Shown: piece after piece, positions 14,696-50,177 of the stretch
Numbering within the stretch: the first letter of the stretch is position 1
Layout: each line of letters begins with the position of its first letter
Assembly (NCBI GenBank): GCA_013177935.1
Contig: JABLXZ010000001.1
Location: 161,794 to 225,793 of the forward strand
Reading direction: 5' to 3'
DNA length: 64,000 bases
Source: a candidate division WOR-3 bacterium
GTDB lineage: Bacteria > Hydrothermota > Tepidihabitantia > Tepidihabitantales > Tepidihabitantaceae
Notes under the pieces: model-generated
Seen by the model: the letters and a program-made list of their open reading frames with translations, nothing else
Told to the model about the DNA's origin: nothing
Database searches by the model: none
Made by a program: the position numbers and the translations under genes

Positions 14696-16132
14696 ATGAT
14701 GAAAAGAGAATTTACACTAACGCGCAAATTTCTGGTGTTAGTAGCCTGTACACTTTTCAGTTGGGGATTGGTCTATGCTGAAGCCGACTCTCTCGCTGTA
14801 AATCAGAGTCCTTTTGTGAAAGCGGTAGAACGCGCTATGCCTGCGGTAGTTAACATTTCGGCTGAGAAAGTGGTAAAAGTTTCCCGAGACGAGATATTTC
14901 CCGATTTTGGCGGACCTTTTGATGAGTTTTTCAGGGAGTTTTTTCGGGGGATGCCAATTCCAGAACAGAATATCCGTTCACTGGGCTCTGGGGTGATTGT
15001 CAGTTCTGAAGGTTATATTGTGACCAATAACCATGTTATTGCTGGCTATGAAGATATCGTGGTAAAACTGGCAGATGGCACAGTTTTCAAGGGTGACGAG
15101 GTTAAAGTTGTCGGCAGGGACCCGCAAACTGACCTGGCGGTCTTAAAGGTTAATTCTGATAAGCCGTTGATGGCAATAAAGTATGCGGACCCGGCAAGTA
15201 TTAAGGTCGGTGATTGGGCGATAGCGATTGGTAACCCCTTTGGGTTGCAGGGAACGGTTACGGTTGGTGTGGTTTCCGCAATTGGCCGTTCGGGAATTCC
15301 TTTGCCTGAAGGACCAACACGCCAGGATTTTATTCAGACCGATGCGGCGATAAATCCTGGTAATTCCGGAGGCGCACTGGTAAATATTAGGGGTGAGTTG
15401 ATTGGAATTAACACCGCATTGAGTTCTCCGGTGGGCGCTAATGTTGGTGTTGGTTTTGCAGTGCCGGTTAGTTATGTTAAGCCGGTTGTTGAGCAATTGA
15501 TTACGTATGGTAAGGTAATAAGAGGGTATTTGGGTGTTAGGCCTCAGGTGATTAACGAGAAAATCCGGCAGGCTTTGAAACTTGATGACACAACCGGGGT
15601 ATTAATAAGTGAGGTTGTTGCGAATACACCCGCGGAAAAGGCGGGGTTGAAGCCCGGGGATGTTATCGTGGCGATAAATGGCGAAAGTTTTGCCGGTGTT
15701 GAGGGTTTTCGCAAACTGATAGCGGAATTTAAGCCGGGAACAGAAGTTGTGTTAACCGTAATACGAAATGGCAAACGGATGACAAAAAGGGCGGTTCTGA
15801 CCGAATTTCCCGAAGAGAGGGCAGAAAATATACCGACTGATGTTGAGAAAGGTAAAGGCTGGTTGGGAATTAAAGTGAGCGAACTTTCGTCTGATGAAAA
15901 GAAGGCGGCTGATGTGAGCGACGGTGTGAAGGTTATTGGGGTTGAGAGAGGTAGTCCGGCAGATAAAGCGGGAATTGAAGTTGGTGATTTGATTCTGAAG
16001 GTGGGAGATGAAACGATAAAAGGGGTGGACGAGTTTTACCGGCTTACCGAAAAGTTGTCCGGCGCAAAGGAGCCCTTACTTTTGTATATTAAACGCGGGA
16101 GCCAGCCGATGTTCGTTGCTGTTGAACCATAA
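14696..16132 (+). CDS. HtrA/DegP-family periplasmic serine protease
   Basis: 478-residue envelope quality-control protease. A signal peptide spans about residues 1-29 (basic start, hydrophobic core, VYAEA end). The trypsin-like domain has its triad at H113 (TNNHVIA), D146 (TDLAVLK) and S224 (GNSGGALVN). Two PDZ domains follow, at about 275-360 and 385-478, each with a GLKPGD or GIEVGD carboxylate-binding loop. This is the full DegP/DegQ architecture. AAAGGAGG lies 4 bases before tandem ATG codons (14696 and 14699). It is likely exported to the periplasm; a role in handling exported surface proteins is inference. Confidence 0.95.
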   Translation: MMKREFTLTRKFLVLVACTLFSWGLVYAEADSLAVNQSPFVKAVERAMPAVVNISAEKVVKVSRDEIFPDFGGPFDEFFREFFRGMPIPEQNIRSLGSGVIVSSEGYIVTNNHVIAGYEDIVVKLADGTVFKGDEVKVVGRDPQTDLAVLKVNSDKPLMAIKYADPASIKVGDWAIAIGNPFGLQGTVTVGVVSAIGRSGIPLPEGPTRQDFIQTDAAINPGNSGGALVNIRGELIGINTALSSPVGANVGVGFAVPVSYVKPVVEQLITYGKVIRGYLGVRPQVINEKIRQALKLDDTTGVLISEVVANTPAEKAGLKPGDVIVAINGESFAGVEGFRKLIAEFKPGTEVVLTVIRNGKRMTKRAVLTEFPEERAENIPTDVEKGKGWLGIKVSELSSDEKKAADVSDGVKVIGVERGSPADKAGIEVGDLILKVGDETIKGVDEFYRLTEKLSGAKEPLLLYIKRGSQPMFVAVEP

Positions 16133-16314
16133 ACAGATTAGTTCAATGTTGACGAGCGGCTTAATTTTTGCCACAATATGCCAATAAAAGGAGGTTTAAT
16201 AGCGTAGTTGTTCGTTTTGAATGACAGAAGGTATTTATTTTATTTGTTGTTTGAGTAAAATAGAAATTGTTTTTTCCAATTTTTCCCCGAAAAAAGAAGG
16301 GTGGTTTTTATATT

Positions 16315-17196
16315 ATGGATGGTATAAAAGAAAAACCATTAATACTTGATGGCAAAAAGGTATCCCAACTTATCAGGGAAGAACTTAAAAACAGGGTTGT
16401 TACACTGAGAGAAAAAGGAATTGTTCCGAAACTGGCTATTGTCCTTGTTGGCGAATATGAACCATCGCTAATCTATGTAACAAATAAAGAACGAGCATGT
16501 CGGTCTGCTGGAATTGAAGCAGAAACTTTCCGTCTCGGTGCCGATGTCGAAGAGTCAAGAGTGGTTGAAATAATCAATCGGTGTAATGAAGACAGGAAAA
16601 TTCATGGCATTATTTTGCAATTACCATTGCCCGGACATTTAGATAAGGATAAGTTGCTTGAAGTTATTAAGCCGGAAAAGGATGTCGACGGTCTAACGCC
16701 GGTAAATTTAGGAAAACTGGCAGCGGGAAAACCGAGGTTCATTCCAGCAACACCAAGTGGGATTGTTGAACTACTGCTACGGTATTCTATTTCTCCAAAG
16801 GGGCGTCGAGTAGTAATTGTCGGTCGTGGCGAGCTTGTGGGCAAGCCGCTCGCAAATCTTTTACTTATAAAAGGAGAACGCGGAGATGCCACGGTAACGG
16901 TGTGCCATAGCCAGACGCCCAATCTAAAATCGGTTTGCCGCGCGGCAGAAATTTTAGTAGTCGCGGCGGGAAAGCCAGGATTGATTAAAGGTGATATGGT
17001 TTCAGAAGGTGCAGTGGTGGTTGACGCTGGTATTCATCGGACAGAACAGGGTATCATTGGAGATGTTGATTTTGACAGTGTCGCGAAAGTTGCAGGGGCA
17101 ATTACACCGGTTCCCGGTGGCGTAGGTCCGATGACGGTAGCGATGTTGTTGTACAATACAGTGGAGGCGGCAGATGGAAGCGGTAATGGAAATTGA
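16315..17196 (+). CDS. folD: Bifunctional methylenetetrahydrofolate dehydrogenase/cyclohydrolase FolD
   Basis: Interconverts methylene-, methenyl- and formyl-tetrahydrofolate. The frame is open from 16267, but the ATG at 16315, after a weak AGAAGGGTGG site, gives the usual 293 residues and starts right at the conserved region. Signatures: SLIYVTNKERACRSAGI with the catalytic Tyr/Lys, LPLPGHLDKDKLL, KDVDGLTPVNLGKL, PATPSGI and the NADP-binding VGRGELVGKPLANLL. It is the first gene of the folD-ispA-dxs-sprA-comEA run and overlaps ispA by 23 bases. Confidence 0.95.
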   Translation: MDGIKEKPLILDGKKVSQLIREELKNRVVTLREKGIVPKLAIVLVGEYEPSLIYVTNKERACRSAGIEAETFRLGADVEESRVVEIINRCNEDRKIHGIILQLPLPGHLDKDKLLEVIKPEKDVDGLTPVNLGKLAAGKPRFIPATPSGIVELLLRYSISPKGRRVVIVGRGELVGKPLANLLLIKGERGDATVTVCHSQTPNLKSVCRAAEILVVAAGKPGLIKGDMVSEGAVVVDAGIHRTEQGIIGDVDFDSVAKVAGAITPVPGGVGPMTVAMLLYNTVEAADGSGNGN

Positions 17197-18001
17197 AGCA
17201 GTTTTAACAAAGGACCAGATACTAATCAATAAAGAACTGCGCCGAACTTTTCACGGATTCCGAAATATGCCAGCTCGGTTGCGGGCTGCAATGCGTTATG
17301 CGGTATTTTCCGGAGGCAAGCGTTTGCGGCCAATACTGGCATTAGAAAGTTATCGAGCATGTGGTGGGAAAAACATCAACTGGATTATACCTTTTTGTTG
17401 CGGAATAGAATTAATTCATACCTTTTCTCTCGTTCACGACGACCTTCCGGCAATGGATAATGATGATTTTCGTCGAGGGAAACCTTCAGTTCATCGTCAG
17501 TTCGATGAGGGGACAGCGATTCTGGCGGGTGACGCTCTGATTGCTTGTGCTTTTGAGTTATTTGCCGTCAGCCCTGCCCCTCTTGCCAATCGCTTAAAGG
17601 CAATTCACCTCATCGCGCATGCTATAGGGCCCAAAGGAATGGCGGGTGGTCAGATGTTTGACCTTGAAGGGTCGCAAGAAACCGAGCGGGTTGCACGGCT
17701 GAAAACCGCCGAATTTATTGCTGCTTCAATCAGCGTTGGGGCAATAATTGCCGGAGCACCGGTGAAACTGCAGAAAAAGTTACACCATCTTGGTTTGATT
17801 ACCGGCGTGCTTTTTCAACTTACCGATGACCTCCTTGATATTGAGCAAGATGCCGTCAGGAATAGCAGGAAAATACAACCCAATCTTATTCGAAGGGCAA
17901 ATCTACTTTCCCGGCGGGCGGAGAAAGGATTTGCATCTCTGGGGCGCAATTTCTCCTTTTTTTCTCATCTGGCTAACTTTATTCTTCGGCGGAATGCGTA
18001 G
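17174..18001 (+). CDS. Trans-isoprenyl diphosphate synthase (FPP/GGPP type)
   Basis: Builds short-chain isoprenyl diphosphates from IPP and DMAPP. It has 275 residues. The first aspartate-rich motif is VHDDLPAMDNDD, followed by RRGKP. GGQMFDLE and a second aspartate-rich motif, QLTDDLLDIE, are present. Length is a little below the usual 290-300, with a basic C-terminus. ATG at 17174 follows GTGGAGGCGG; a later ATG at 17186 is also possible. The gene sits between folD and dxs, the source of its substrates, matching the frequent ispA-dxs pairing. Chain length cannot be decided by eye. Confidence 0.93.
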   Translation: MEAVMEIEAVLTKDQILINKELRRTFHGFRNMPARLRAAMRYAVFSGGKRLRPILALESYRACGGKNINWIIPFCCGIELIHTFSLVHDDLPAMDNDDFRRGKPSVHRQFDEGTAILAGDALIACAFELFAVSPAPLANRLKAIHLIAHAIGPKGMAGGQMFDLEGSQETERVARLKTAEFIAASISVGAIIAGAPVKLQKKLHHLGLITGVLFQLTDDLLDIEQDAVRNSRKIQPNLIRRANLLSRRAEKGFASLGRNFSFFSHLANFILRRNA

Positions 18002-19873
18002 ATGGCTGTATTAAAATCCGTCAATTCACCAGAGGACATTCGCAAACTATCGCTTGATGAACTAAGGCAACTTGCCAGCGAGATTAGAGATTTGATAATT
18101 ACAACTACATCACTTACTGGAGGTCATGTAGCCCCAAACCTTGGGGTTGTTGAGCTAACTTTAGCGCTGCATTACGTTTTTAATACACCGGACGATCGGA
18201 TTATTTGGGATGTGGGACATCAATGTTACGCTCATAAAATAATTACAGGCCGTAAGGAAAAATTTTCCACATTGCGCCAATACGGCGGAATCGCAGGTTT
18301 TCCTAAAAAGTCGGAAAGTGTTTACGATGTTTTTGATACGGGACATTCTGGTAATTCAATCTCGGTTTCCCTCGGAATGGCAACGGCAGATTATTTACTT
18401 GGTAATAACACTCGGCGCACAGTGGCAGTAATCGGGGATGGTTCAATTGTCAGTGGAATGGCGCTTGAGGCCCTCAACCATGCGGGGATGTTGAAGCGAG
18501 ATATTATAGTTGTTCTTAACGATAACGAGATGTCAATTGCCCGTTCGACCGGCGCCATTGCTGCCTATCTTAATCGGGTGATTACGGGAAGGGTTTACAA
18601 TAGGTTGCGGGAGGATGCCTGGTCCCTACTCGGACATCTACCGAAAGATTTAAGTGCCCGTGCCCGACTTGCGGCAAGAAAACTTGAAGAAGGGTTAAAA
18701 AATCTTGTTGTCCCCAGTCTTCTTTTTGAGGAGTTGGGTTTTAGGTATATTGGGCCGGTAGACGGGCATAGTATTCCCGAATTGATAGAGACCTTTCGTC
18801 GAGTAAGAGGGCTTAAAGGTCCGGTATTGATTCATACAGTAACTAAAAAAGGTCAAGGTTACTCGATAGCGATGGAGCAACCAGAACGCTTTCATGGCAT
18901 CGGTCCTTTTGATGTAAAGACCGGTGCCTCCAGCGTGTCCTCGGGACCAACATTCACCGAAAGTTTCGGCAGAAAAGTTGTTGAGCTTGCGGAGCGAAAC
19001 CCACGAGTGGTTACAATAACCGCGGGGATGTGTTTGGGAACTGGGTTGGAGCAATTTAGAGAGAAGTTCCCTGATAGGTTTTTTGATGTGGGGATTTGCG
19101 AGCAGCATGCGGTGAGTTTTGCAGCGGGGTTAGCGCAAAATGGATTAAGACCGGTGGTGGCGATATATTCTACTTTTTTGATGCGGGCAATTGACCAGTT
19201 ACTGCAAGATGTGTGTTTACAGAATCTGCCGGTGGTATTTGCGATAGACCGAGCGGGTCTGGTTGGTGAGGATGGGCCAACTCATCATGGGGTTTATGAC
19301 CTTTCGTACCTGACAATGCTCCCCGGCATAAAAATATTTGCTCCACGAGATGAGTTTGATATGGCGCGGATGTTGGAGTATGCGGTTGAATGTGTTAATG
19401 GTCCAGTAGCACTTCGTTATCCTCGCGGTGGTTCGGAATTAACTCTTTCGTCCACCGAAAGAAGTCCGATTGAACCCGGGAAGGGAGAATTGTTACGGTA
19501 CGGAGAGGACGGCGCGGTTCTCGCTGTAGGCTCGATGGTAAAATATGCCCTCGATGCCGCAGAACTTCTTGCCCAGCAGGGTCTGGACTTGGCGGTTGCG
19601 GATGCTCGTTCAGTTAAACCCGTTGATGAGGAACTTATAACGCGACTAGCACGGATAAAAGGTAAACTGGTTACACTTGAGGAAAATACTCTATTGGGCG
19701 GGTTTGGGAACCTCGTGAGTTTAGTTCTTGAAAAAAGAGCTGTTGACTGCAAGTTACGCCGGATTGGGCTGGAAGATAGATTTTTCGGTCACGGCCCACG
19801 GAAGAAGTTGTTAGAAGAATGTGGGTTGAGCGTTGATAAGATTAGCAGCAATTTGATGCAGTTTTTCCGATGA
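18002..19873 (+). CDS. dxs: 1-deoxy-D-xylulose-5-phosphate synthase
   Basis: First enzyme of the MEP isoprenoid pathway; joins pyruvate and glyceraldehyde 3-phosphate with thiamine diphosphate. It has 623 residues. N-terminal GGHVAPNLGVVELTLALH and WDVGHQCYAHK carry catalytic His residues, and the thiamine-binding GDGSIVSGMALEALN follows. The pyrimidine domain has CEQHAVSFAAG, and the family signature EDGPTHHGVYDL and a transketolase C-terminal domain complete the protein. It begins on the base after the ispA stop and overlaps sprA by 4 bases (ATGA). ispF of the same pathway is elsewhere in the window (46352). Confidence 0.97.
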   Translation: MAVLKSVNSPEDIRKLSLDELRQLASEIRDLIITTTSLTGGHVAPNLGVVELTLALHYVFNTPDDRIIWDVGHQCYAHKIITGRKEKFSTLRQYGGIAGFPKKSESVYDVFDTGHSGNSISVSLGMATADYLLGNNTRRTVAVIGDGSIVSGMALEALNHAGMLKRDIIVVLNDNEMSIARSTGAIAAYLNRVITGRVYNRLREDAWSLLGHLPKDLSARARLAARKLEEGLKNLVVPSLLFEELGFRYIGPVDGHSIPELIETFRRVRGLKGPVLIHTVTKKGQGYSIAMEQPERFHGIGPFDVKTGASSVSSGPTFTESFGRKVVELAERNPRVVTITAGMCLGTGLEQFREKFPDRFFDVGICEQHAVSFAAGLAQNGLRPVVAIYSTFLMRAIDQLLQDVCLQNLPVVFAIDRAGLVGEDGPTHHGVYDLSYLTMLPGIKIFAPRDEFDMARMLEYAVECVNGPVALRYPRGGSELTLSSTERSPIEPGKGELLRYGEDGAVLAVGSMVKYALDAAELLAQQGLDLAVADARSVKPVDEELITRLARIKGKLVTLEENTLLGGFGNLVSLVLEKRAVDCKLRRIGLEDRFFGHGPRKKLLEECGLSVDKISSNLMQFFR

Positions 19874-22800
19874 ACAAAATTAAATTTTGGGCATTTTGGG
19901 GAGCATTACTTTTTTCGTCAAATTATCTTTTTGGTTACTCTTTGGTTGAAGAGTCAAAGGTTGTTGCTCGACCTGATTATGTACTGGGTGTTGTTTTTCT
20001 TGAAAAGTGGCGGGATGATGTTTATTTGGGAGTGGAAAAGGTAATTCCCCTTGAAGAGTACTTAGATTATTCGATTAAGGAGGCAGTGATTGCTACCTGG
20101 CAAAGTGAGGCACGTCAGACGATGGAGCGACGAGAACTGGCTGCAGAGCCAAGCGGGTTAATTCCTGACATTGAAATACCAAAATTACCGATATTAGGGG
20201 AAGGCTCTAAGATAGATATCACGGGAAGCGACCGAATAACACTTGGTGGTAGTCAGACGGTAGTTACCGGTGTGACTCAGACGGCAAATCAACCTTCGCT
20301 TTTCCCCGAGTTGAAAATGGAACAACAATTGGCGGTCAGCGTTAATGGGACGATTGGCGAGCGCGTGAAGGTTACCATTGATCATAATTCAGAAAGAGAA
20401 GAGCAGCAGAATAAAATTAGACTGCAGTACACAGGAACCGAGGACGATGCGGTTCGTTCAATTGAGCTGGGCGATACCAAACTGGATATTCCTGGAACCA
20501 GTTACACGGGAGACCTGCCAGCGCGGCAAGGGCTTTTTGGTATTTCGGCAAAGGGTAAAATGGGTCCAGTTGACTTATATGCTGTTGCCTCGCGGGAAGG
20601 CTCACAAAGTCAAAGTCAAAGTTTTACTGGTAAGAGACGAGTGAAGACCGATACCATCTGGGATGTTGACTTTGTCCCACGGCGTTTTTATCGACTTCCG
20701 GGCGTAGATACAAGCGAGCGGTTGGTTGGTTTGAGAATTTACATCGATGACCGAAATTCTGGTAACAACCAGGCGGCGGTGAAAGCAATCGCGACGGTAT
20801 TTCCCAACGCACCCGATTCGGTAGTTGAAGACACTACTACTTGGTGGAGTTATGACCGGGCAGGCGGTGATTTTGACCTCAAAGCTCCGGGTATCGACTA
20901 TGTTGTTCAGCCCAATAATATAGTTGAATTCCTGAGCCCGATTGAACGCAATTATATCATCGGGGCTGTTATTTATAAGGCGACCGATACGCTGGGGGGG
21001 CAACTGTTACGCGATTCTTTAGTCCTGTGTTTGCTTAAACCGGAAGTGAGTGATTCTCTTTCTCGAGCCTGGGATTTGGAACTTCGGAACAGTTATCAGT
21101 TACCAGAAACCGATGTTAAATTGGACGCGATTCAAATATTCCGTTATGACCCTCAGGGTCAACATGCCGATTATGAAACCGACCCGGCCAATCCATACTT
21201 CGGAATGAAATTTCTTCAGATTTTGAAATTGGACCCCGACGGTGATGGTAAACTTCAATACCCCGAGTTTGACAGTAAAACAGGTATTATCAGATTTCCC
21301 GGGTTAAAGCCATTTGCCGCAGGAGAGCTTTCGGTAAAAGATTCAATTATCTACCGTGTCAATACCGATATTTTGCCACCCGGTTTGGGTAGAAAATATT
21401 TTCTCGTTGCTTCTTATTACTCGGTTACCGAGACTTATTATCTGGGTCAGACGGACATTATGGAAAATTCCGAGAAAATCCTTGTCAATGGGCAATTGAA
21501 AACACGAAATGTGGATTACTCGATTGATTATAAAACTGGTATCATCACTTTTTTAACTCCTTTACCTCCCGACGCCGACATTCAAGTAACATTTGAATAC
21601 CAGCCATGGTTTTCTCTTACCCAGAGTTCGTTGGTGGGTACCCGGGCAGAATGGGTTTTTGCACCGCAGGGTAAAGTTGGTTCCAGTTTTTTCTTCCGGG
21701 ACGAAGGCGTCCGGGAAGATAAACCAATCCTTGGTTCGGAACCTTTTCAGCGCACTATTGCCGAAACCGATATTGGATACAGTGTTACATCAGATGCGGT
21801 CACGGCGTTTCTCGACCGGCTTCCCATTCTCTGGGCACAGGCTCCATCCCGTCTTGATTTTCGAACCGAAGGGGCCGTATCTCTGCCGAATCCCAACACC
21901 CGGGGGGTGGCTTATCTTGATGATTTTGAGGGTACAACAATCACACGAGATATTCCCAATACGGCATTGCTCTGGTCATTGGCATCTGTACCGGTTGGCA
22001 AAGACACCAGTCAGTTTGCCCGTACTCCACTGAAATGGATTAACCCAGCGAAGAAGATTCGTAAGGACAGTGTGTTTGGTACCAATATCGGCGATGAAGC
22101 GAGTGAGACGCAAGATATTCTGCAAGTTATTGTTACTCCTGACAACTCGGCAAGCTGGGCCGGGATAATGCAGGCACCACCTGGGGCGCAAATTGGGATG
22201 AATTTTACCGACATCGAAAACCTTGAATTGATTGTGAGGTCGCGACAAGGGCGAGGTAATTTACACATCTCAGTTGGAATGGCAATCGATGAGGATGCAC
22301 CGCGCCGCGCAAAAGATGGCACGATTAAAGGGCTCAATGGCCGTCTTGATACCGAGGACCGAAATGGCAATGGTATCCTTGACGAGGATGAAGATACCGG
22401 GCTTGATAGTGTTTTCGGTTCAGATTCTCTCTGGAGCCCAGGTTCATTAGACGATGGCACTGACGACTACGATCCGTATACCAATCAACAGGGAACCGAA
22501 AGGAATCGTCGTCTTGATGCAGAAGATCTGGATCGCAATGGGTTTTCTCGTTACAACCATTACTTTGAATATACCATTTCCCTACAAGATGATAAGTTTC
22601 TGACGCCCCTTTACAACAACTGGCGCCTCTACCGACTTTCTTTACGCGACAGCACCCTTTTTAACAAAATCGGTACTCCGAAGTGGGAGGATATACGTGT
22701 AGTTCGGGTTTGGTTTGATGAATTTGACAGTTTGGATACGTTAGAGATATATTCAATTCAATTTGTTGGCAGCAAATGGCGCGACCCCAGGATTACCGAC

Positions 22801-25512
22801 AAGATGGACAACCGGATTGTTATTGCTGATACCACGGAAAAAGTTTGGGTCGGTCAGGTTTCCAAGAAAACAGATACTACTTATAACTCACCGTTTGAAC
22901 TCAAACGAGATATAACCGGACGATTAGAAACTGAAGCAGCACTTTTGTTTGGGTACAGCAACTTAGATACTTCGCATCAGGCGTTTGTTAGTAAGACAAT
23001 TACCACTGGCGAAGATTATCGCGATTACGAAGAGTTGCGGTGGTTTGTCCACGACGATGGAAACGGACTCAACACTTTTATTAGACTTGGTTCCGATTCG
23101 GCAAACTATTATGAATTTCGAGCTCCGATTGCATCAGGAAGAAAGATAGCATACGGAGATGGCAGATGGTTTGAATTTTCGATAAAACTGGAATCGTTGC
23201 CTTTTCTTAAGTTGAAGCGCGATTCATTAAGGATAGCACCGGAGTCAATTTTGACCCTAAAGATGGGCGAGCATTATTACCGAATTAAAGGAATGCCTCT
23301 TTTAGCCAATATCCGCTGGACCGCCTTGGGTGTTGAAAACACCGGCACTGAAAGAGTGAGCGGCGGTGTTTGGTTTAATGACCTTCGACTGACGACTCCC
23401 CGTAAAGACCCGGGGTATGGATTCACAGCGCAAACGAACTTCCAGCTGGCAGATTTTGCGGCAATTGATTTGAGGTACTCATATTCCGATCCCAACTTTC
23501 GCCGTTTTTCCGATGGGAGGGGTGTAAAAACTGGTGGTTTTGAGCAAAACTTCGGCACTAATGTCCGGATAAGTTTTGATCACTTCTTTCCCCGAGATTG
23601 GAAATTATCAATTCCTTTTGGATATTCAATGTCGCGTCAGGTTTCTGTCCCGAAGTTTTCTCCAACATATCCTGACCTAAGGTTGAAGCTGGAAGATGGG
23701 ACACGGGTAATCGGCAGGGGGGTTGCACAGGAAATTAATCTAACAAATATTTCTAAGGGTAAGTCCAACAATAAATTGCTTAATTATACTATTGAAGCAA
23801 TGAGTTTCTCTTGGTATGAGCGTTGGGCGGCAAGTCGTAGATATCCTTTTTTTGATTCCAGTAATGCGCGGGGATGGCAATGGCGGTACGGTATCAATCC
23901 GGATGTAAAAATTTCCCTCGGCAAAGATAAAGAACTTTATCCTTTACCTCGTGACATTCGGTTTGCAATAACTCAGGGGAAACGTATTGATATTCGAGGG
24001 GATACGATTCGCTCTTATCCTGATACGCTGCGCGGTAACGGAATTTCCGGAGATTTTAGTATTGGTTTTTCTCCTGTAGAAGACCTTAATATCGAATATG
24101 GATGGGAAACAGAGCGAGATTTAATTACCTCCAACCCTGATACGATTTTCCGTTTTCCACTGGGAGCAGAAGGTCGCCGAAATGAAGACTTCAATGTTTC
24201 CTATGAATTACAGATTGGGGAAATTTTCAATCCGTCTATTGAGTTCAACGGCGAGTATAACCACGAACGTCCTAAAATTGGCACCACCTATGCAGATTAT
24301 CGGAATATCGATAATTCGGGCGAAATAGCACTCAGTGCGACATTAGAACTGCCAGATATATTGGACAAGCTTGCCACTGCTCCCAAGAGACAACCCGTCT
24401 CTCCGCAAAAACCTATCAGGGAAACCGGGAGGCCATTAAGAAAATCAGGCGAGCAAGAACAAGCAGAAGATACGACCGCGTTGGAATCAAATGGAGATAC
24501 CATTTCCGTTGTACCTCCAGTAGCGAAAAAATCCACACTATTTTTTGATCTAAAGTCGGTCGTTAGTGAACTTGCAAAAAATATTGAGCCCCTGGAAGTA
24601 AGTTACTCAATTTCGCGCAATAGTGATTATCAGGTGTTTCCTGGAGCAGCGCCCTGGTATTATCGATTTGGATTTCTCGATACATTTCCAATTGATACCA
24701 TAATTGGCAGACTTCCACGCACGAGAGAACTTGATAACAACTTCCGATTTTCAACGGGTGGTGGTTACCGAGACTTTTCGATTAGGTTGGATTACAGCCT
24801 CAGTTGGGGGAAAAACGCTGCTCTTGTGGGTGCAACTGCAGACCGTAATTTGGTCTGGCCTAACATTCAAATTAATATCAATCGGGTACACAATTTATTC
24901 AGTGCATTTGCTACTGATTCTCGAATTTCTTCCAGCTATCGAAAGAGCTGGGATATGAGAGGCGAGCTACTGCCAACTTCTTATGGTGGCGAAACACTTG
25001 CAATATTTGGTCGTACCGAAACAAGGTCGATTGATTTAAACCCTCTTTTCTCTTGGCAAACTTCTTGGAAAAAGAGAATTTCGACAACATTTAACATAAA
25101 TTACAGCACGGTCAGTAACATTTCCTATCTCAGTGAAACCGGTGTCAATCGCAGCCAGACGGATTCTCGAACTCAGGGTGCCAACTTTTCTGTTTCATAT
25201 GCCTTTTCTGCTCCTCAGGGTTTGAAATTGCCATTTTTAAGACGGGTTCGATTTTCTTCAGATCTGAACCTTACCGGCCAGCTGCGAATATCTCAAACAT
25301 TGCGGGACCAGAAAGTCTGGAGTTCTATTGGCGAACCTTCGGTTGTACCCCAACAAAAAGACAATGCATTTGGCACAACTATTGGTGCATCTTACCGTTT
25401 TTCCCGAGCTATTGAAGCAGGGTTGAATACCGGCTACAGCCACAACCGGGGATTGAGCGGTATTACTACCCGTCGAACCGATCTAAGCTGCTGGGTACTG
25501 TTTCGCTTTTAA
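19870..25512 (+). CDS. sprA: SprA/Sov-like giant outer-membrane protein (type IX secretion translocon)
   Basis: 1880 residues with a signal peptide (about 1-24). In Bacteroidetes, SprA forms the very large outer-membrane beta-barrel channel through which type IX secretion cargo passes. Recognisable features: an N-terminal repeat block with LAVSVNGTIGERVKVTIDHN and IRLQYTGTEDDAVRSIELGD. The hallmark AYLDDFEGT is at residues 681-689, and NNWRLYRLSL follows. Calcium-binding-like DRNGNGILDEDED is near 836. Many alternating aromatic/hydrophilic strands run to the C-terminal WVLFRF, a typical outer-membrane protein ending. A Pro/Glu-rich linker at about 1500-1555 looks disordered, and there is a short SQSQSQS run near 240. 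It is shorter than Flavobacterium SprA (about 2400). It overlaps dxs by 4 bases and comEA by 1. The family call rests on motifs recalled, not on an alignment. Confidence 0.85.
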   Translation: MNKIKFWAFWGALLFSSNYLFGYSLVEESKVVARPDYVLGVVFLEKWRDDVYLGVEKVIPLEEYLDYSIKEAVIATWQSEARQTMERRELAAEPSGLIPDIEIPKLPILGEGSKIDITGSDRITLGGSQTVVTGVTQTANQPSLFPELKMEQQLAVSVNGTIGERVKVTIDHNSEREEQQNKIRLQYTGTEDDAVRSIELGDTKLDIPGTSYTGDLPARQGLFGISAKGKMGPVDLYAVASREGSQSQSQSFTGKRRVKTDTIWDVDFVPRRFYRLPGVDTSERLVGLRIYIDDRNSGNNQAAVKAIATVFPNAPDSVVEDTTTWWSYDRAGGDFDLKAPGIDYVVQPNNIVEFLSPIERNYIIGAVIYKATDTLGGQLLRDSLVLCLLKPEVSDSLSRAWDLELRNSYQLPETDVKLDAIQIFRYDPQGQHADYETDPANPYFGMKFLQILKLDPDGDGKLQYPEFDSKTGIIRFPGLKPFAAGELSVKDSIIYRVNTDILPPGLGRKYFLVASYYSVTETYYLGQTDIMENSEKILVNGQLKTRNVDYSIDYKTGIITFLTPLPPDADIQVTFEYQPWFSLTQSSLVGTRAEWVFAPQGKVGSSFFFRDEGVREDKPILGSEPFQRTIAETDIGYSVTSDAVTAFLDRLPILWAQAPSRLDFRTEGAVSLPNPNTRGVAYLDDFEGTTITRDIPNTALLWSLASVPVGKDTSQFARTPLKWINPAKKIRKDSVFGTNIGDEASETQDILQVIVTPDNSASWAGIMQAPPGAQIGMNFTDIENLELIVRSRQGRGNLHISVGMAIDEDAPRRAKDGTIKGLNGRLDTEDRNGNGILDEDEDTGLDSVFGSDSLWSPGSLDDGTDDYDPYTNQQGTERNRRLDAEDLDRNGFSRYNHYFEYTISLQDDKFLTPLYNNWRLYRLSLRDSTLFNKIGTPKWEDIRVVRVWFDEFDSLDTLEIYSIQFVGSKWRDPRITDKMDNRIVIADTTEKVWVGQVSKKTDTTYNSPFELKRDITGRLETEAALLFGYSNLDTSHQAFVSKTITTGEDYRDYEELRWFVHDDGNGLNTFIRLGSDSANYYEFRAPIASGRKIAYGDGRWFEFSIKLESLPFLKLKRDSLRIAPESILTLKMGEHYYRIKGMPLLANIRWTALGVENTGTERVSGGVWFNDLRLTTPRKDPGYGFTAQTNFQLADFAAIDLRYSYSDPNFRRFSDGRGVKTGGFEQNFGTNVRISFDHFFPRDWKLSIPFGYSMSRQVSVPKFSPTYPDLRLKLEDGTRVIGRGVAQEINLTNISKGKSNNKLLNYTIEAMSFSWYERWAASRRYPFFDSSNARGWQWRYGINPDVKISLGKDKELYPLPRDIRFAITQGKRIDIRGDTIRSYPDTLRGNGISGDFSIGFSPVEDLNIEYGWETERDLITSNPDTIFRFPLGAEGRRNEDFNVSYELQIGEIFNPSIEFNGEYNHERPKIGTTYADYRNIDNSGEIALSATLELPDILDKLATAPKRQPVSPQKPIRETGRPLRKSGEQEQAEDTTALESNGDTISVVPPVAKKSTLFFDLKSVVSELAKNIEPLEVSYSISRNSDYQVFPGAAPWYYRFGFLDTFPIDTIIGRLPRTRELDNNFRFSTGGGYRDFSIRLDYSLSWGKNAALVGATADRNLVWPNIQININRVHNLFSAFATDSRISSSYRKSWDMRGELLPTSYGGETLAIFGRTETRSIDLNPLFSWQTSWKKRISTTFNINYSTVSNISYLSETGVNRSQTDSRTQGANFSVSYAFSAPQGLKLPFLRRVRFSSDLNLTGQLRISQTLRDQKVWSSIGEPSVVPQQKDNAFGTTIGASYRFSRAIEAGLNTGYSHNRGLSGITTRRTDLSCWVLFRF

Positions 25513-25853
25513 TGAACGACCGCGAGAAGACCGTTGTTATCTTTTTGGTAAGTGTGCTTGTGGTTGGAGCGGGAATAAGTTTTTTCAAAAAAAGCCAGCG
25601 TTCTCGAGTGGTTTCTGAGGTGAACATTATCGGAGGGGAAAGGTCGGGAGATGAGAAGTTGGATATCAATCAGGCGACGGCAGAACAGTTGGAAGCTTTG
25701 CCGGGCATAGGGTCAGTGATTGCACAAAGGATCGTTGAGTACCGTGAAAAGCACGGAGGATTTAAAACGGTGGATGAGCTTCTTGAAGTGACTGGTATTG
25801 GGCCTAAAAGGTTGGCAGGAATTAAGGATTTTGTAGTTTGTAATCCACCTTAA
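25512..25853 (+). CDS. ComEA-like membrane-anchored helix-hairpin-helix protein
   Basis: 113 residues. One N-terminal transmembrane anchor (about 7-24) is followed by a short linker and two helix-hairpin-helix motifs: LDINQATAEQLEALPGIG and GFKTVDELLEVTGIGPKRL. This is the ComEA layout, which binds double-stranded DNA at the cell surface or periplasm during natural transformation. It could also be one of the many short HhH proteins without a competence role. Its ATG shares one base with the sprA stop, so translation is probably coupled. No other competence gene is in the window. Confidence 0.85.
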   Translation: MNDREKTVVIFLVSVLVVGAGISFFKKSQRSRVVSEVNIIGGERSGDEKLDINQATAEQLEALPGIGSVIAQRIVEYREKHGGFKTVDELLEVTGIGPKRLAGIKDFVVCNPP

Positions 25854-36319: not shown

Positions 36320-37024
36320 GTGTTGCTGGAAGTGCAGGATTTAGTTGTGGACTATGGAGCAATTCGGGCATTACGGGGGATATCTTTTAGTGTTGGAGAA
36401 GGGGAAATTGTTACTCTCATTGGGGCAAATGGGGCGGGGAAGACAACAACATTAAAGACAATTTCTGGATTGCAAAAGCCATCGACCGGAAAGATTGTAT
36501 TTTTGGGCAAGAGAATTGATGGATTAAGTGGGCACCAAATCGCAAAATTAGGTGTCGTTCATGTTCCAGAGGGCCGCCGGCCATTTGCTGATATGACAGT
36601 GCGAGAAAATCTACTTCTCGGTGCTTTCAATCGCCCCCGTTCTGAAATTGATAAATCTTTTGAACGGGTTTTCAAATCTTTCCCGAGATTAAAAGAGCGG
36701 CTTAACCAACGTGCCGGAACGCTTTCGGGAGGCGAATTACAGATGCTTGCGATGGGCCGGGGCTTGATGGCGAAGCCAAAATTGTTGATGCTCGACGAAC
36801 CTTCAATGGGGCTCTCGCCGATTCTCGTTCAGGAGATTTTTTCTATAATCCAAGAGATTAATCGCCAGGGGACAGCGATACTACTTGTGGAACAGAATGC
36901 GTACATGGCGCTTCAGATTGCCCATCGGGCATATGTTCTGGAAACAGGACAGATTGTTCTTGAAGGCAAAGCGGATGAACTGCGAAATGCACCTGAAGTC
37001 AAAGCCGCATATCTCGGTGAATGA
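36320..37024 (+). CDS. livF: Branched-chain amino acid-type ABC transporter ATPase LivF
   Basis: 234 residues from a GTG immediately after the livG stop. Walker A GANGAGKTTTLKTISGL, the LivF-typical VPEGRRPFADMTVRENLLLGA, signature LSGGELQMLAMGRGL, Walker B LLMLDEPSMGLSP and H-loop-equivalent LLVEQN. Its C-terminus (KAAYLGE) matches family ends. No periplasmic binding protein gene (LivJ/K) lies next to this cluster; instead a DUF2723 membrane protein overlaps it by 8 bases. Confidence 0.94.
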   Translation: MLLEVQDLVVDYGAIRALRGISFSVGEGEIVTLIGANGAGKTTTLKTISGLQKPSTGKIVFLGKRIDGLSGHQIAKLGVVHVPEGRRPFADMTVRENLLLGAFNRPRSEIDKSFERVFKSFPRLKERLNQRAGTLSGGELQMLAMGRGLMAKPKLLMLDEPSMGLSPILVQEIFSIIQEINRQGTAILLVEQNAYMALQIAHRAYVLETGQIVLEGKADELRNAPEVKAAYLGE

Positions 37025-41351: not shown

Positions 41352-43475
41352 ATGAAGTACTGTCGTGTCGGGGTGGTCTTTTTCCTTGCGCTGGGAATTG
41401 CCCTTGCGGCATTACCCGAAAGCGAGCAAGGAGTAAATACCCCTATCATCAGCCGGTCGGAAGCGGTTATCGCACCGGTCGAATTGCCGGGAGGAAGCCA
41501 TGCGGTTGAGTTCCCGTTGCCCTTTGCTCCGGATGAGACGCTACATTACGACGGCACGCCTTATACCGGTGTGGGTTTAACCAATGGCGGGACATTCTAC
41601 ACTGCGGCGCGTTTTACACCGACGACCGCCTGCACACTCAAAGCGGTTTTGTTTTATCAGTGGGGTCAGTCTTCGAATGATTATGTCTTTATCTTTGGTG
41701 AAGAGAACGATACGACCCCGGGTGCGAAACTGGAGTCGATACCTTATAGCGGAACCGATACTATGCGCTGGAAGCGAATCGATTTGAATCCGCCGCTTAT
41801 TATGCAAGCCGGAACCGACTTCTGGGCTTGTGTTCGGTTAACGCACGCTGCGGGCAGATATCCGATAGGATGCGATGCAGGACCAATGGTGCGCAACCGG
41901 GGTGGTTTTATCTCCACTAATGGTACCCGGTGGCAGCAGTTAGCCGACCTTGGACTGGATTACAACTGTAACATCCGGGCGGTCATCAGCCGGATTCCGG
42001 GTCTGGCACATGATGTCGGAGTCTCAAAGATTGTGGTTCCCGGGGCTAATATTGGACCTGGTTCTTATCCACCGGTTGCTCGTGTGACGAATTTTGGGAC
42101 GAGCGCCGAATCCAACATACCGGTTTACTGCTGGATTGATTCCGGCGCAACCCGAATTTACAATCAGACCGTAACAATCCCTGGTCCGTTGCAACCGGGT
42201 AATAGAACAGAAGTGACCTTTCCAACCTGGAACACTGGACCTGGTGGTGCCCAGTATACGGTTACGATGTTTACCGACCTTTCTTCAGACCTGAATCGTG
42301 CCAATGACTCCTTACGTCAGCAAACACGCATTGCCAATGTGTTTGCTGTTATGGACCACGACACCGGCTATTGTAAACTGAGCGTCTCCTGCTTCGGTTC
42401 GATTGGTTACGACAACCCGCAAGCCGACCTCGGTTCTGGCTTCTGCTATCCCAAGACCGCGGCTTCCTGTCTGTTCTATGGTTCGTTTGCGATGGGTACT
42501 GATGCCAACTATGTTGCTGACCGGCATTTTGGTCAACCGGCAAGTGGTCCGGTCAACAACGACCTGCGGGCAGTGGATTCACTGCGGGCGATTGTTCCAC
42601 CGGTGATTGGCGATGAGCACTTCTATGGTAGTTTTTCTGATGCCGGTCATTCGACTCCGAAAAATTTAAAGGTTACCCAGAACAGTTATATGAGTGCCGG
42701 CACCAACTATGACGACTTTATCGTGATTATCTACGATATTGAGAATCAAGGTTCCAGTGCGGTGAATGGACTGTACGCTGGTGTGTTTATGGACTTTGAT
42801 ATCGGCTCTTCGCCCGCTACAAACCAGGGCGCCTCGGATACGGTGCGGCGTTTGACCTATATGCGGCAGGCAAGTTCGGCTAACCCTTCAGTTGGGGTTA
42901 AAATTCTTGAGCCGGCTTCGTTTGCCAATCTGAGCCTGGTTGACCACGCAATTTATGTGTACCCGGATTCGGCGATGACCGATAATATGAAGTGGCGGTT
43001 CTTGAACGGAACAATTCGGCAGCGTAACTCCAACCGTGCCTATGACTGGTCGATCGTTACTTCGGCTGGACCGTTTAATATCGACCCGGGCGCGACGCAG
43101 CGATTTGCGATTGCGGTGGTCGGCGGAACCGACGAAACTGCAATTCGGAACAATGCCGATGCGGCACAGCAGTGGTACAATGCCAATGTTGGCGTGGCGG
43201 AAAATTCCGGGGTTAATCTTATGGATAAGGTCCACATCGCCCCTAATCCCTTCCGCAAGAAAACCGCAATTTCTTACAATGTAACCCAACCCGGCAGGTT
43301 CGTGTTTGAAGCCTATGATGCATCAGGACGGATGGTTGATAAAGTAGCGTTTGAAGTTGCGGCTGGTAAAGGGGTCTTTGTGTGGCAGCCGCGAACTCTT
43401 GCCCGGGGTGTTTACTTCTTGAATATCAGCACGCCTGATGTCAACATTAGAACGAAGGCGTTGGTTCTCGAATAG
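41352..43475 (+). CDS. Secreted CARDB-domain protein with type A C-terminal sorting domain
   Basis: 707 residues. The signal peptide is about 1-20 (hydrophobic core, ALA-type end). The N-terminal domain (about 60-215) is rich in Gly, Thr and aromatic residues and looks all-beta. A CARDB-like Ig domain spans about 218-330 (DVGVSKIVVPGANI, then SNIPVYCWIDSGATR). A large unclassified domain spans about 330-620, and a terminal domain of about 80 residues follows: APNPFRKKTAISYN, YDASGRMVDK, LARGVYFLNIS, ending KALVLE. This last part is the type A sorting signal of Por/T9SS cargo, so it is probably exported and left at the surface. A strong ribosome binding site, consensus promoter and perfect terminator suggest an abundant protein. 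Function otherwise unknown. Confidence 0.85.
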   Translation: MKYCRVGVVFFLALGIALAALPESEQGVNTPIISRSEAVIAPVELPGGSHAVEFPLPFAPDETLHYDGTPYTGVGLTNGGTFYTAARFTPTTACTLKAVLFYQWGQSSNDYVFIFGEENDTTPGAKLESIPYSGTDTMRWKRIDLNPPLIMQAGTDFWACVRLTHAAGRYPIGCDAGPMVRNRGGFISTNGTRWQQLADLGLDYNCNIRAVISRIPGLAHDVGVSKIVVPGANIGPGSYPPVARVTNFGTSAESNIPVYCWIDSGATRIYNQTVTIPGPLQPGNRTEVTFPTWNTGPGGAQYTVTMFTDLSSDLNRANDSLRQQTRIANVFAVMDHDTGYCKLSVSCFGSIGYDNPQADLGSGFCYPKTAASCLFYGSFAMGTDANYVADRHFGQPASGPVNNDLRAVDSLRAIVPPVIGDEHFYGSFSDAGHSTPKNLKVTQNSYMSAGTNYDDFIVIIYDIENQGSSAVNGLYAGVFMDFDIGSSPATNQGASDTVRRLTYMRQASSANPSVGVKILEPASFANLSLVDHAIYVYPDSAMTDNMKWRFLNGTIRQRNSNRAYDWSIVTSAGPFNIDPGATQRFAIAVVGGTDETAIRNNADAAQQWYNANVGVAENSGVNLMDKVHIAPNPFRKKTAISYNVTQPGRFVFEAYDASGRMVDKVAFEVAAGKGVFVWQPRTLARGVYFLNISTPDVNIRTKALVLE

Positions 43476-47454: not shown

Positions 47455-47482
47455 TTGACATTGGGACTTTGAAGTGTAGACT
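47455..47482 (+). promoter_or_regulatory. Promoter of the Kelch surface-protein gene
   Basis: TTGACA (47455-47460), 16-base spacer, TAGACT (47477-47482). The leader of about 75 bases ends with GCAGGAGGA before the ATG at 47565. Confidence 0.7.
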
Positions 47483-47564
47483 TTCGGTAGTTAGGGAGTC
47501 AAAGGTTCCAGTGTATTTTGGAACCGGACTCAAAGTAGATAAACAAAAAAGCAGGAGGAAAGAT

Positions 47565-50177
47565 ATGAGGAAGAATGTCGCGCTCCTCGCTCTGGTTAGT
47601 CTATTGGGACTGGTGTTTGCTGCTGGTTCTGATGTAACCACGAGCGACTTGAGCCAGAGTGCACCCCAGAAGGTAAAACTGTACTATGGCACTTATGGCT
47701 CAAACGACTATGTCTGGGGGACAGTAAATCCGTCCCTTCCGAACGATGCCTGGATGTTGCACAGCGAAATGCCGGGCAGGATGATGGACAACACCTGTGC
47801 CACTGATGGCAACTATGTTTATGTCCTTGCCGGTTATGGTACCACCAATGTGCTTTATCGGCATGCGATTGGTTCAACAACCTGGGAAACGAGGGCGCCC
47901 TGTCCGCTTGATATCTCCAATGGTGGTGCGGCAATTATTGGCGATACGCTGTATTACTGTTCGGGTTATTCTTATTCACTGGGCACGACCGTTGACACGA
48001 TGTTTAAGTACTGTATCAGCACCAACACCTGGACGAGTGGTCCTGGTCCTTTTACCGGTACAACCTATAACTGGCAGCCGCTTGTGTTAGCCTGTGGTGG
48101 CAAGCTGTATTACATCAGCGGTTGCAACCAGCCTGGAGCGACCAACCCGACCCGTAATGTCTGGTGCTATACGCCGGGCAGTGGCTGGGCTCAGGTTGCG
48201 GATATGAACCAGGGCAGGGTTTTTGCGATGGGCTGTGTTTACCACGATACCATCTGGGTTACTGGTGGCTATCAGAACACGACCGTTTTGAACCACTCTG
48301 AGTTCTACGACCCGGTTTCAAACACCTGGACGGTTGACAACACCCGTTTTCCGCAGTTGCCGATTGCGACTTGGGCAGCAGCGAGCGGTGTTGTTGGTCA
48401 GACGATGTTTGTCCATTCGGGCGTGAGTTCTGCTATGGCGCTGATGGACACGACTCAGTACTTTGACTTTGGTACAAGAAACTGGACTGTGACACCGACA
48501 GTGCTATTAAAGGTTTACCGCGGCACTGGAGTTGGTAATGCTGATGGCAAGGCGGTGGTTTACGGTGGTTCAACTGGTGGTTTTACACCAACCGACACCT
48601 GTCAGTATGAGGTCCTCGCTACCGGGAATACCAACGATGTGGGTGTGATTCAGATTGTCAGTCCGGCGAGCGTCATTACACCGGGTAACATCACCCCTCG
48701 GGCAAAGATTAAAAACTTTGGTACTGCTGCGCAGTCAAACATACCTGTTTACTGCTGGATTGATTCCGGTGCAACCCGGGTGTACAACCAGAGTGTGACT
48801 TATCCTGGACCACTGGCACCGGGTGCAACTGCTGATGTGGACTTCACCCCTCAATGGCGCGCGGTTGGTGGGACTTATAATGTCACAATGTTTACCGATT
48901 TGTCGGGTGATGAAGCGCGATCCAACGACACGTTGCGCGGAACCGCTCAGGTGATGCAGTATACTATTGACTGGTATCAGAGCGATACGATTCGACCCGA
49001 CCGTGTGAGCCGTGTTGCCTGTGTCAACGATGCCCAGGGCAATCTCCATGTTATCTGCGGCAACTGCTTCCCACACTCCTCCCATCCTTATGACCAGGTT
49101 TACGACACGGTTGCAAATACCTGGTCACAGGGATTGCAGCATCCAGCAGGCGGTGGCGTCGGAGTTCATAACCACGATGCGGTTATAATTGGTGATGTTA
49201 TCTGGGTAGGCGGTGGTAGCAGTGGCAGCGGGTTTTACAACTACCTGACCAAACTTGACCTTGGTGCCAACACCTGGACGCAAGCCGCAGCAATGCCTCA
49301 GTCCAATCTGCTCTACTACTCGTTTGGTGAGTATGCGGATTCGGGCTGGGTGTACTGCTTTGGCGGTTCACCGGACGGAACCTCGGGTCCGATTAACAAC
49401 ACTTATCGGTATGATCCATCCACTAACTCCTGGACAGCGATGGCAAATATGCCAGATGTCCGGCGGAATCCGATGGTTGCTCGGGTTGGCGACACCATCT
49501 ATGTGATTGGCGGAATGTCAGCCAATGACTATACCTCTACGCGTGGCACTATGTGGAAGTACTCGGTATTGGGTAATACCTGGACCGTAGCGGCTGATTC
49601 GATGCCCGACAAATTAGGCTGGGGTCGGGCGGTTGCCTACTCTTATTCGGGCGGAACATATATTTATGTATTTGGTGGTTATCGCACCGGTTCGATTGTT
49701 AACGCCTGCTGGCGCTATGATGTGAATAATCATACCTGGACTGCAGACCGTCCTCTTCTCACTCCAGTGCGTTCCCACGGTGGGTCGATTTCTGGAAACT
49801 ACATCTGGGTTGCTGGTGGTTACGGCACCGCAATTATGCCCAATGTTCAAAAAGGTATCATTTCCCTTACCGGGGTTGAAGAAGGTAAACCGAGCATCAA
49901 CTGGGAAGGGATTGATGGTATTGCTCCGACATTGGTGCGGGATTTCTGCCGAATCAGTTACAATGTTCCTTCTACGGGACGGGTCAATCTGAGTGTTTAT
50001 GATGCATCGGGCTCACTGGTCAGGACTCTGGTGAATGAGATTTCAAATCCGGGTAATAAGACCGTTACCTGGGACCGGCGTGATGCTTCAGGCAAGCGGG
50101 TTGCGAACGGCACCTACTTCTACCGGCTGACGATTGATGGTAAGTCGGTTTCTGCCAAGGCGATAGTGCTGCAATAA
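47565..50177 (+). CDS. Secreted Kelch-CARDB-Kelch protein with type A C-terminal sorting domain
   Basis: 870 residues from the ATG at 47565 with its AGGAGG site; the frame is open earlier from 47469 but without signal peptide. A signal peptide (about 1-19) is followed by a first block of Kelch-type repeats (about 50-340; units such as NYVYVLAGYG, DTLYYCSGYS, DTIWVTGGYQ). A CARDB-like Ig domain follows (about 358-465, SNIPVYCWIDSGATR again), then a second Kelch block (about 490-765, with FGGSPDG, VIGGMSAND, VFGGYRTGS, VAGGYGTA). The final about 80-residue domain has YDASGSLVRTL, VTWDRRDASGKRV and GTYFYRLTIDGKS, ending KAIVLQ. The end matches a T9SS type A or FlgD-like sorting domain, so surface export is likely. 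Confidence 0.85.
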   Translation: MRKNVALLALVSLLGLVFAAGSDVTTSDLSQSAPQKVKLYYGTYGSNDYVWGTVNPSLPNDAWMLHSEMPGRMMDNTCATDGNYVYVLAGYGTTNVLYRHAIGSTTWETRAPCPLDISNGGAAIIGDTLYYCSGYSYSLGTTVDTMFKYCISTNTWTSGPGPFTGTTYNWQPLVLACGGKLYYISGCNQPGATNPTRNVWCYTPGSGWAQVADMNQGRVFAMGCVYHDTIWVTGGYQNTTVLNHSEFYDPVSNTWTVDNTRFPQLPIATWAAASGVVGQTMFVHSGVSSAMALMDTTQYFDFGTRNWTVTPTVLLKVYRGTGVGNADGKAVVYGGSTGGFTPTDTCQYEVLATGNTNDVGVIQIVSPASVITPGNITPRAKIKNFGTAAQSNIPVYCWIDSGATRVYNQSVTYPGPLAPGATADVDFTPQWRAVGGTYNVTMFTDLSGDEARSNDTLRGTAQVMQYTIDWYQSDTIRPDRVSRVACVNDAQGNLHVICGNCFPHSSHPYDQVYDTVANTWSQGLQHPAGGGVGVHNHDAVIIGDVIWVGGGSSGSGFYNYLTKLDLGANTWTQAAAMPQSNLLYYSFGEYADSGWVYCFGGSPDGTSGPINNTYRYDPSTNSWTAMANMPDVRRNPMVARVGDTIYVIGGMSANDYTSTRGTMWKYSVLGNTWTVAADSMPDKLGWGRAVAYSYSGGTYIYVFGGYRTGSIVNACWRYDVNNHTWTADRPLLTPVRSHGGSISGNYIWVAGGYGTAIMPNVQKGIISLTGVEEGKPSINWEGIDGIAPTLVRDFCRISYNVPSTGRVNLSVYDASGSLVRTLVNEISNPGNKTVTWDRRDASGKRVANGTYFYRLTIDGKSVSAKAIVLQ

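Follow-up and report, generated by a model that had tools for sequence, protein, structure and literature searches.

Introduction

The type IX secretion system (T9SS) of Bacteroidota, with SprA, PorV, PorU and GldKLMN as its parts, is described as needing the GldLM/PorLM proton motor for the release of cargo from SprA; in Flavobacterium johnsoniae this motor is needed to free both carrier and cargo (PMC10994853). A precedent for a T9SS set that lacks core motor genes comes from a different phylum: one published survey (PMC7323717) gives a Bacteroidetes “Incertae sedis” set with Sov, PorU, PorV, PorQ, PorZ and others, and without PorK, PorL, PorM or PorN. SprA has already been called FCB-specific (PMC12611786), the TIGR04183 sorting domain has been described as exclusive to the FCB superphylum (PMC4737851), and several FCB phyla may have a T9SS (PMC11285876). 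No publication on T9SS in candidate phylum WOR-3 was found by a literature search outside of which most subscription journals lay, and protein secretion is not mentioned in the two recent WOR-3 studies that were searched. The spread of SprA across the FCB superphylum is therefore published knowledge; the inventory for WOR-3 and the missing motor are the new part.

Here we describe a SprA gene within a stretch of 64,000 nucleotides (the window; bases 161794-225793 of contig 1, which is 715 kb long) from a WOR-3 genome of 1.96 Mb that is 98.6% complete in five contigs. Window coordinates are used unless otherwise stated.

Results and Discussion

Identification of SprA

The sprA (sov) reading frame, predicted to encode the T9SS outer-membrane translocon, lies on the forward strand at 19870..25512, begins with ATG and specifies 1880 residues. 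Using hmmscan, the protein scored 461.4 bits against TIGR04189 (surface_SprA; E=6.8e-138, curated cut-off 200), and the Pfam family SprA_N (PF14349) matched with 97.6 bits. When the PDB was searched by sequence with phmmer, the sole match was F. johnsoniae SprA (6h3i/6h3j, E=1.7e-33), over several collinear stretches. The TIGR04189 score and the PDB matches rule out chance or partial similarity; the match is also not attributable to chance because the family is missing from all 14 control genomes.

For fold comparison the protein was modeled as two halves, so the expected 36-strand barrel is covered in two pieces rather than one. The model of residues 1000-1880 has a mean pLDDT of 81.8 and contains many strands of 15 to 28 residues, and that of residues 60-1000 is of moderate quality (pLDDT 65.7). 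Four SprA chains topped the list of PDB matches for both half-models, with E values from 1e-27 to 1e-43 and all others at 2e-5 or worse; the best matches of the two halves, both SprA chains, were at 7.5e-36 and 1.3e-43. Compared with F. johnsoniae SprA (6h3i, 6h3j, 8gl6, 8gl8) and Porphyromonas gingivalis Sov, the window protein is alike in collinear sequence, in TIGR04189 and SprA_N matches and in the folds of the half-models. It differs in being shorter (1880 versus about 2400 amino acids), and its identity to the solved SprA proteins in structural alignments is 13-18%.

Judged by sequence and predicted fold, the open reading frame encodes a genuine SprA. The original prediction had named it as such from the motifs YLDDFEG (residues 682-688) and GERVKVTIDHN (residues 163-173) and from an aromatic C-terminus (...WVLFRF); all three were found as claimed, the coordinates and length were exact, and the TIGR04189 search that it had proposed as a check gave the score reported above. 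The proposed structural check was likewise favorable in that both half-models match SprA folds best, with the qualification that the models cover the expected 36-strand barrel in two halves and not in one piece.

Gene neighborhood and predicted cargo in the window

The first 4 bases of sprA overlap the end of dxs, which encodes 1-deoxy-D-xylulose-5-phosphate synthase (18002..19873, forward strand; TIGR00204, 769 bits) and which synteny marks as a conserved partner of sprA across WOR-3. Upstream on the same strand are an ispA-type polyprenyl diphosphate synthase gene (17174..18001; PF00348) and folD (16267..17196; PF02882/PF00763), which neighbor sprA in 20 and 15, respectively, of 21 WOR-3 loci. 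Downstream, a gene for a ComEA-like helix-hairpin-helix protein (25512..25853, forward strand; TIGR00426 above cut-off; 14/21 loci) overlaps the last base of sprA. A DegP/HtrA-type periplasmic serine protease gene precedes the string (14696..16132, forward strand; TIGR02037, 457 bits, above cut-off; 10/21 loci), and its product could possibly act in quality control of outer-membrane proteins. The folD-ispA-dxs-sprA-comEA string, in many cases preceded by htrA, is conserved among WOR-3 families and sets the window gene apart from those of F. johnsoniae SprA and P. gingivalis Sov. Proximity of dxs or ispA to sprA was seen only in WOR-3-like records and in one MAG (L073) whose SprA identity marks it as closely related to WOR-3. 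Among the SprA loci compared, no dxs-sprA linkage was found outside WOR-3, the SprA-bearing phyla elsewhere in FCB included.

Two forward-strand genes of the window encode predicted T9SS cargo with C-terminal type A sorting domains (TIGR04183, cut-off 23), in agreement with the sorting-domain proteins that the original prediction had mentioned elsewhere in the window. One protein has 707 amino acids with the domain at residues 629-702 (41352..43475; 28.7 bits); the other has 902 amino acids, kelch/mutarotase-like repeats and the domain at the C-terminus, residues 830-900 (47469..50177; 24.9 bits). The window also holds a gene for a 624-amino-acid membrane protein that matches TMEM260-like O-mannosyltransferases (36885-38759; PF11028).

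Distribution and inheritance of SprA

The closest named SprA locus, from a candidate division WOR-3 record (L072), is 51% identical. SprA was found in all 41 genomes searched, comprising the host and its relatives up to the level of its class, and exceeded the TIGR04189 cut-off in 39 of them. Within WOR-3, SprA is thus the rule and not an oddity of the window. A tree of 52 SprA proteins was built with FastTree, which joins long branches readily and was used for WOR-3 clustering only; in it, the 16 WOR-3 rows cluster together, along with two further MAGs. We take sprA to be an old resident of WOR-3 because of its class-wide presence, the conserved gene string and the clustering in the tree. That the gene was recently acquired from Bacteroidota, or that the contig is a contaminant, is exceedingly improbable: no evidence in favor of either was found, the 41/41 presence, the WOR-3-specific neighborhood and the clustering of WOR-3 sequences speak against both, and the contig that carries the gene is 715 kb long. 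The suggested WOR-3 host is borne out by the SprA relatives and the class-wide presence. The further suggestion of a T9SS-like system beyond Bacteroidota also holds, and is not surprising in itself, since SprA and the sorting domain are already described as FCB-specific in the literature.

Cargo, sortase and carrier genes of the host

TIGR04183 has 101 matches in the 1.96 Mb host genome, 97 of them above cut-off, although some weak ones may represent FlgD-like Ig domains unconnected with secretion. Two full-length PorU genes exceed the NF033707 cut-off (C1:432864-435992 and C2:384457-387573). Both products have GHG and GSC motifs, which hold the catalytic His and Cys, and the product of the C1 gene aligns with the P. 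gingivalis PorU structure 6za2. PorU matches are present in 31/31 class genomes, as are genes above cut-off for the PorV/PorQ family (PorV_fam), which has 11 members in the host. One of these directly adjoins the PorU gene at C1:432864-435992, a pairing that recurs in relatives; its product passes PF19572 and PorV_fam, and scores 85 bits against a cut-off of 250 for the PorV equivalog NF033710.

The outer-membrane and attachment half of a T9SS is therefore present in the host, as PorU, the PorV/PorQ family and sorting-domain matches. By every outer-membrane feature tested, whether in sequence or in predicted fold, the WOR-3 SprA is like a T9SS translocon. The original prediction had noted that PorL/M/N, PorV and PorU genes are absent from the window, which agrees with the genome searches (the host PorU and PorV matches listed lie outside it), and that the remaining components had to be encoded elsewhere or be different. 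Both apply: a genome-wide search for the partners recovered PorU, PorV and about 100 cargo proteins elsewhere, and did not recover PorL, PorM or PorN.

Besides its two PorU proteins, the host encodes further gingipain-type C25 peptidases (L052:14687-18271 and other NF033707 part-matches), and at least one of these has a sorting domain. Genes for PorV-like barrels, one or two per locus, lie within a few kb downstream of sprA in Marinimicrobia and Calditrichia (loci L099, L102, L105, L106, L116, L122, L128, L129, L137, L140 and L146).

Absence of detectable GldM

The GldM family model matched none of the 31 class genomes searched and none of 22 SprA-bearing genomes from other FCB groups (Zixibacteria, Cloacimonadota, Marinimicrobia, Krumholzibacteriota, Calditrichota, Ignavibacteria and Bacteroidetes-named MAGs), which in this respect resemble WOR-3. 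These negatives are informative because the same model gave matches in the positive control, a set of Bacteroidota-phylum genomes of which 30 of 118 responded. GldL (0/31 class genomes) and GldN (0/41) were also undetected, by models for which no positive control rang. WOR-3 has SprA, the PorV family, PorU and type A sorting domains in common with the Bacteroidota T9SS and differs in that GldL, GldM and GldN were undetected. Any one gene could be absent from a 98.6% complete, five-contig host assembly, but not from all relatives at once. Judged from these model searches, full membership in the canonical T9SS fails on GldM.

A conventional T9SS whose PorK/L/M/N proteins have diverged past recognition would look the same, as family models could miss PorLMN proteins that have diverged strongly. 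GldL and GldM could both lie beyond the reach of the models, and the GldL and GldN searches had no ringing control. We nevertheless regard this as quite unlikely: GldM is a long periplasmic protein, and its counts of 0/31 and 0/22 stand against 30/118 in the Bacteroidota phylum. Moreover, the MotA/ExbB-family genes of the host all belong to operons of tol-pal or exbB-exbD-tonB type, and none is beside a GldM-like gene. The protein is a member of a known family, and the system, as read from its gene content, is a T9SS variant with translocon, carrier and sortase and without detectable PorLMN.

Candidate motors

The host has three MotA/ExbB-family genes, at loci L155, L156 and L157. L155 is tol-pal. 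L157 (5432-13359; G000:C1:226432-234359) starts about 0.6 kb past the end of the window and contains exbB-exbD-exbD-tonB at 226.4-228.5 kb of contig 1, followed after tonB by a strong sorting-domain protein (48 bits), one further open reading frame and a SusC-like TonB-dependent receptor.

L156 is an operon of eight genes (L156:1438-10257, equivalent to G000:C3:214438-223257; orthologues at L194-L211) that encode, in order, a sorting-domain protein, a PorV/PorQ-like barrel, an 837-amino-acid TPR protein, ExbB, an ExbD with the proton-binding Asp, a second ExbD without it, TonB and a FlgD-Ig/OmpA-like protein. Its ExbB belongs to a family of its own, with members 42-93% identical, that 31 of the 41 genomes encode. 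Most WOR-3 families have the operon; of 18 loci examined, the majority preserve the gene order, which is looser in family f8. In every aligned copy the membrane Asp of ExbD1 is kept and ExbD2 lacks it. The layout of one ExbB and two ExbDs is like that of Myxococcus AglRQS. Relative to the AglRQS, ExbBD and TolQR motors, L156 differs in its linkage to a PorV/PorQ-like barrel and a sorting-domain protein, and in having one ExbD without the Asp. Two SprA-bearing families, f4 (five genomes) and f6 (four genomes), do not have the operon; their remaining ExbB and TolQ loci, in the genomes examined, are those of the ordinary two systems, and exbB-exbD-exbD-tonB is in every f4 and f6 genome examined.

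Because it combines a proton motor with a barrel of the carrier family and with a sorting-domain protein, the L156 operon is a natural candidate for a substitute motor in the 31 genomes. It might replace porP-K-L-M-N and PorW/PorE and pull carrier-cargo complexes, and the conserved gene order, the distinct ExbB and the unequal ExbD pair would suit such a role. As a general SprA motor, it fails on co-occurrence and cannot be the general answer, because f4 and f6 have SprA (and, in the genomes searched, PorU and PorV) without it; in addition, it is unlinked to sprA. We consider it unlikely that this operon is the energizer. The stronger statement that the energy chain of the WOR-3 T9SS has been swapped, with an L156-type TonB/ExbBD motor in place of PorK/L/M/N in most families, is likewise doubtful; if true, T9SS would be a translocon open to coupling with different proton motors. 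The absence from f4 and f6 implies that energizers are family-specific, or that the universal ExbBD-TonB or Tol system serves the T9SS, or that L156 does something else. The middle course, in which exbB-exbD-exbD-tonB (L157) or Tol-Pal is shared with nutrient uptake or envelope upkeep, is a tentative possibility that we would sooner doubt than accept. These are the sole 5:2-type motors found in f4 and f6, and a sorting-domain protein lies directly after tonB in the host, with a similar protein there in f4 loci. However, the operon also includes a TonB-dependent receptor, so that a role in uptake would suffice to account for it, and a physical link to SprA is not known.

Proposed mechanism

We consider it likely that SprA is the translocon of a vertically inherited WOR-3 T9SS, most probably driven by a proton motor of the ExbB-ExbD/TolQ-TolR kind other than GldLM. 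The transport steps are taken by homology from F. johnsoniae and P. gingivalis. Cargo would cross the inner membrane by Sec. At the outer membrane, the C-terminal sorting domain of the cargo would dock on a PorV-family carrier lodged in the pore of SprA; carrier and cargo would exit together by the lateral gate, and PorU would cut off the sorting domain and complete attachment. Because a motor is needed for release from SprA in F. johnsoniae, something should do the release in WOR-3. Since GldLM and the ring protein GldN were not found there, the energy step would most likely fall to another motor driven by protons, of the ExbB-ExbD/TolQ-TolR kind.

SprA without detectable GldM is thus found throughout one class of an outlying phylum, and in sampled members of several other FCB groups. 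This raises the questions of what the ancestral motor was and of whether some other means can energize the translocon. Display of proteins at the cell surface appears from the gene inventory to be a neglected trait of WOR-3.

Additional observations on sprA loci and SprA-like motifs

In one single-contig genome (G003), sprA is broken (L224 and L225; C1, about 651-654 kb and 217-227 kb). Residues of about 12-759 follow dxs, and residues of about 718-1880, together with comEA, are 430 kb away on the opposite strand, where this part of sprA continues in frame into about 2060 additional residues. Either rearrangement or misassembly could account for the break. Another genome (G025; L226, G025:C27) has two sprA loci, one cut by a contig end, which represent either a second copy or a contaminant contig. 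A Chloroflexi-named record (PASL01000033.1; L111) carries a SprA gene and is perhaps a misnamed MAG of an FCB phylum.

Many genomes contain a second, weak match to the SprA profile (positions about 601-651). It is not a second SprA, and reflects a DYxIDYxTGxIxF motif shared with another outer-membrane-like protein. Such a protein, conserved, of 1066 amino acids, without a Pfam family and with this one motif in common with SprA, is encoded in the host at L052:8672-11872 (G000:C1:113172-116372), and its relatives are open reading frames of about 900-1350 amino acids in many related genomes.
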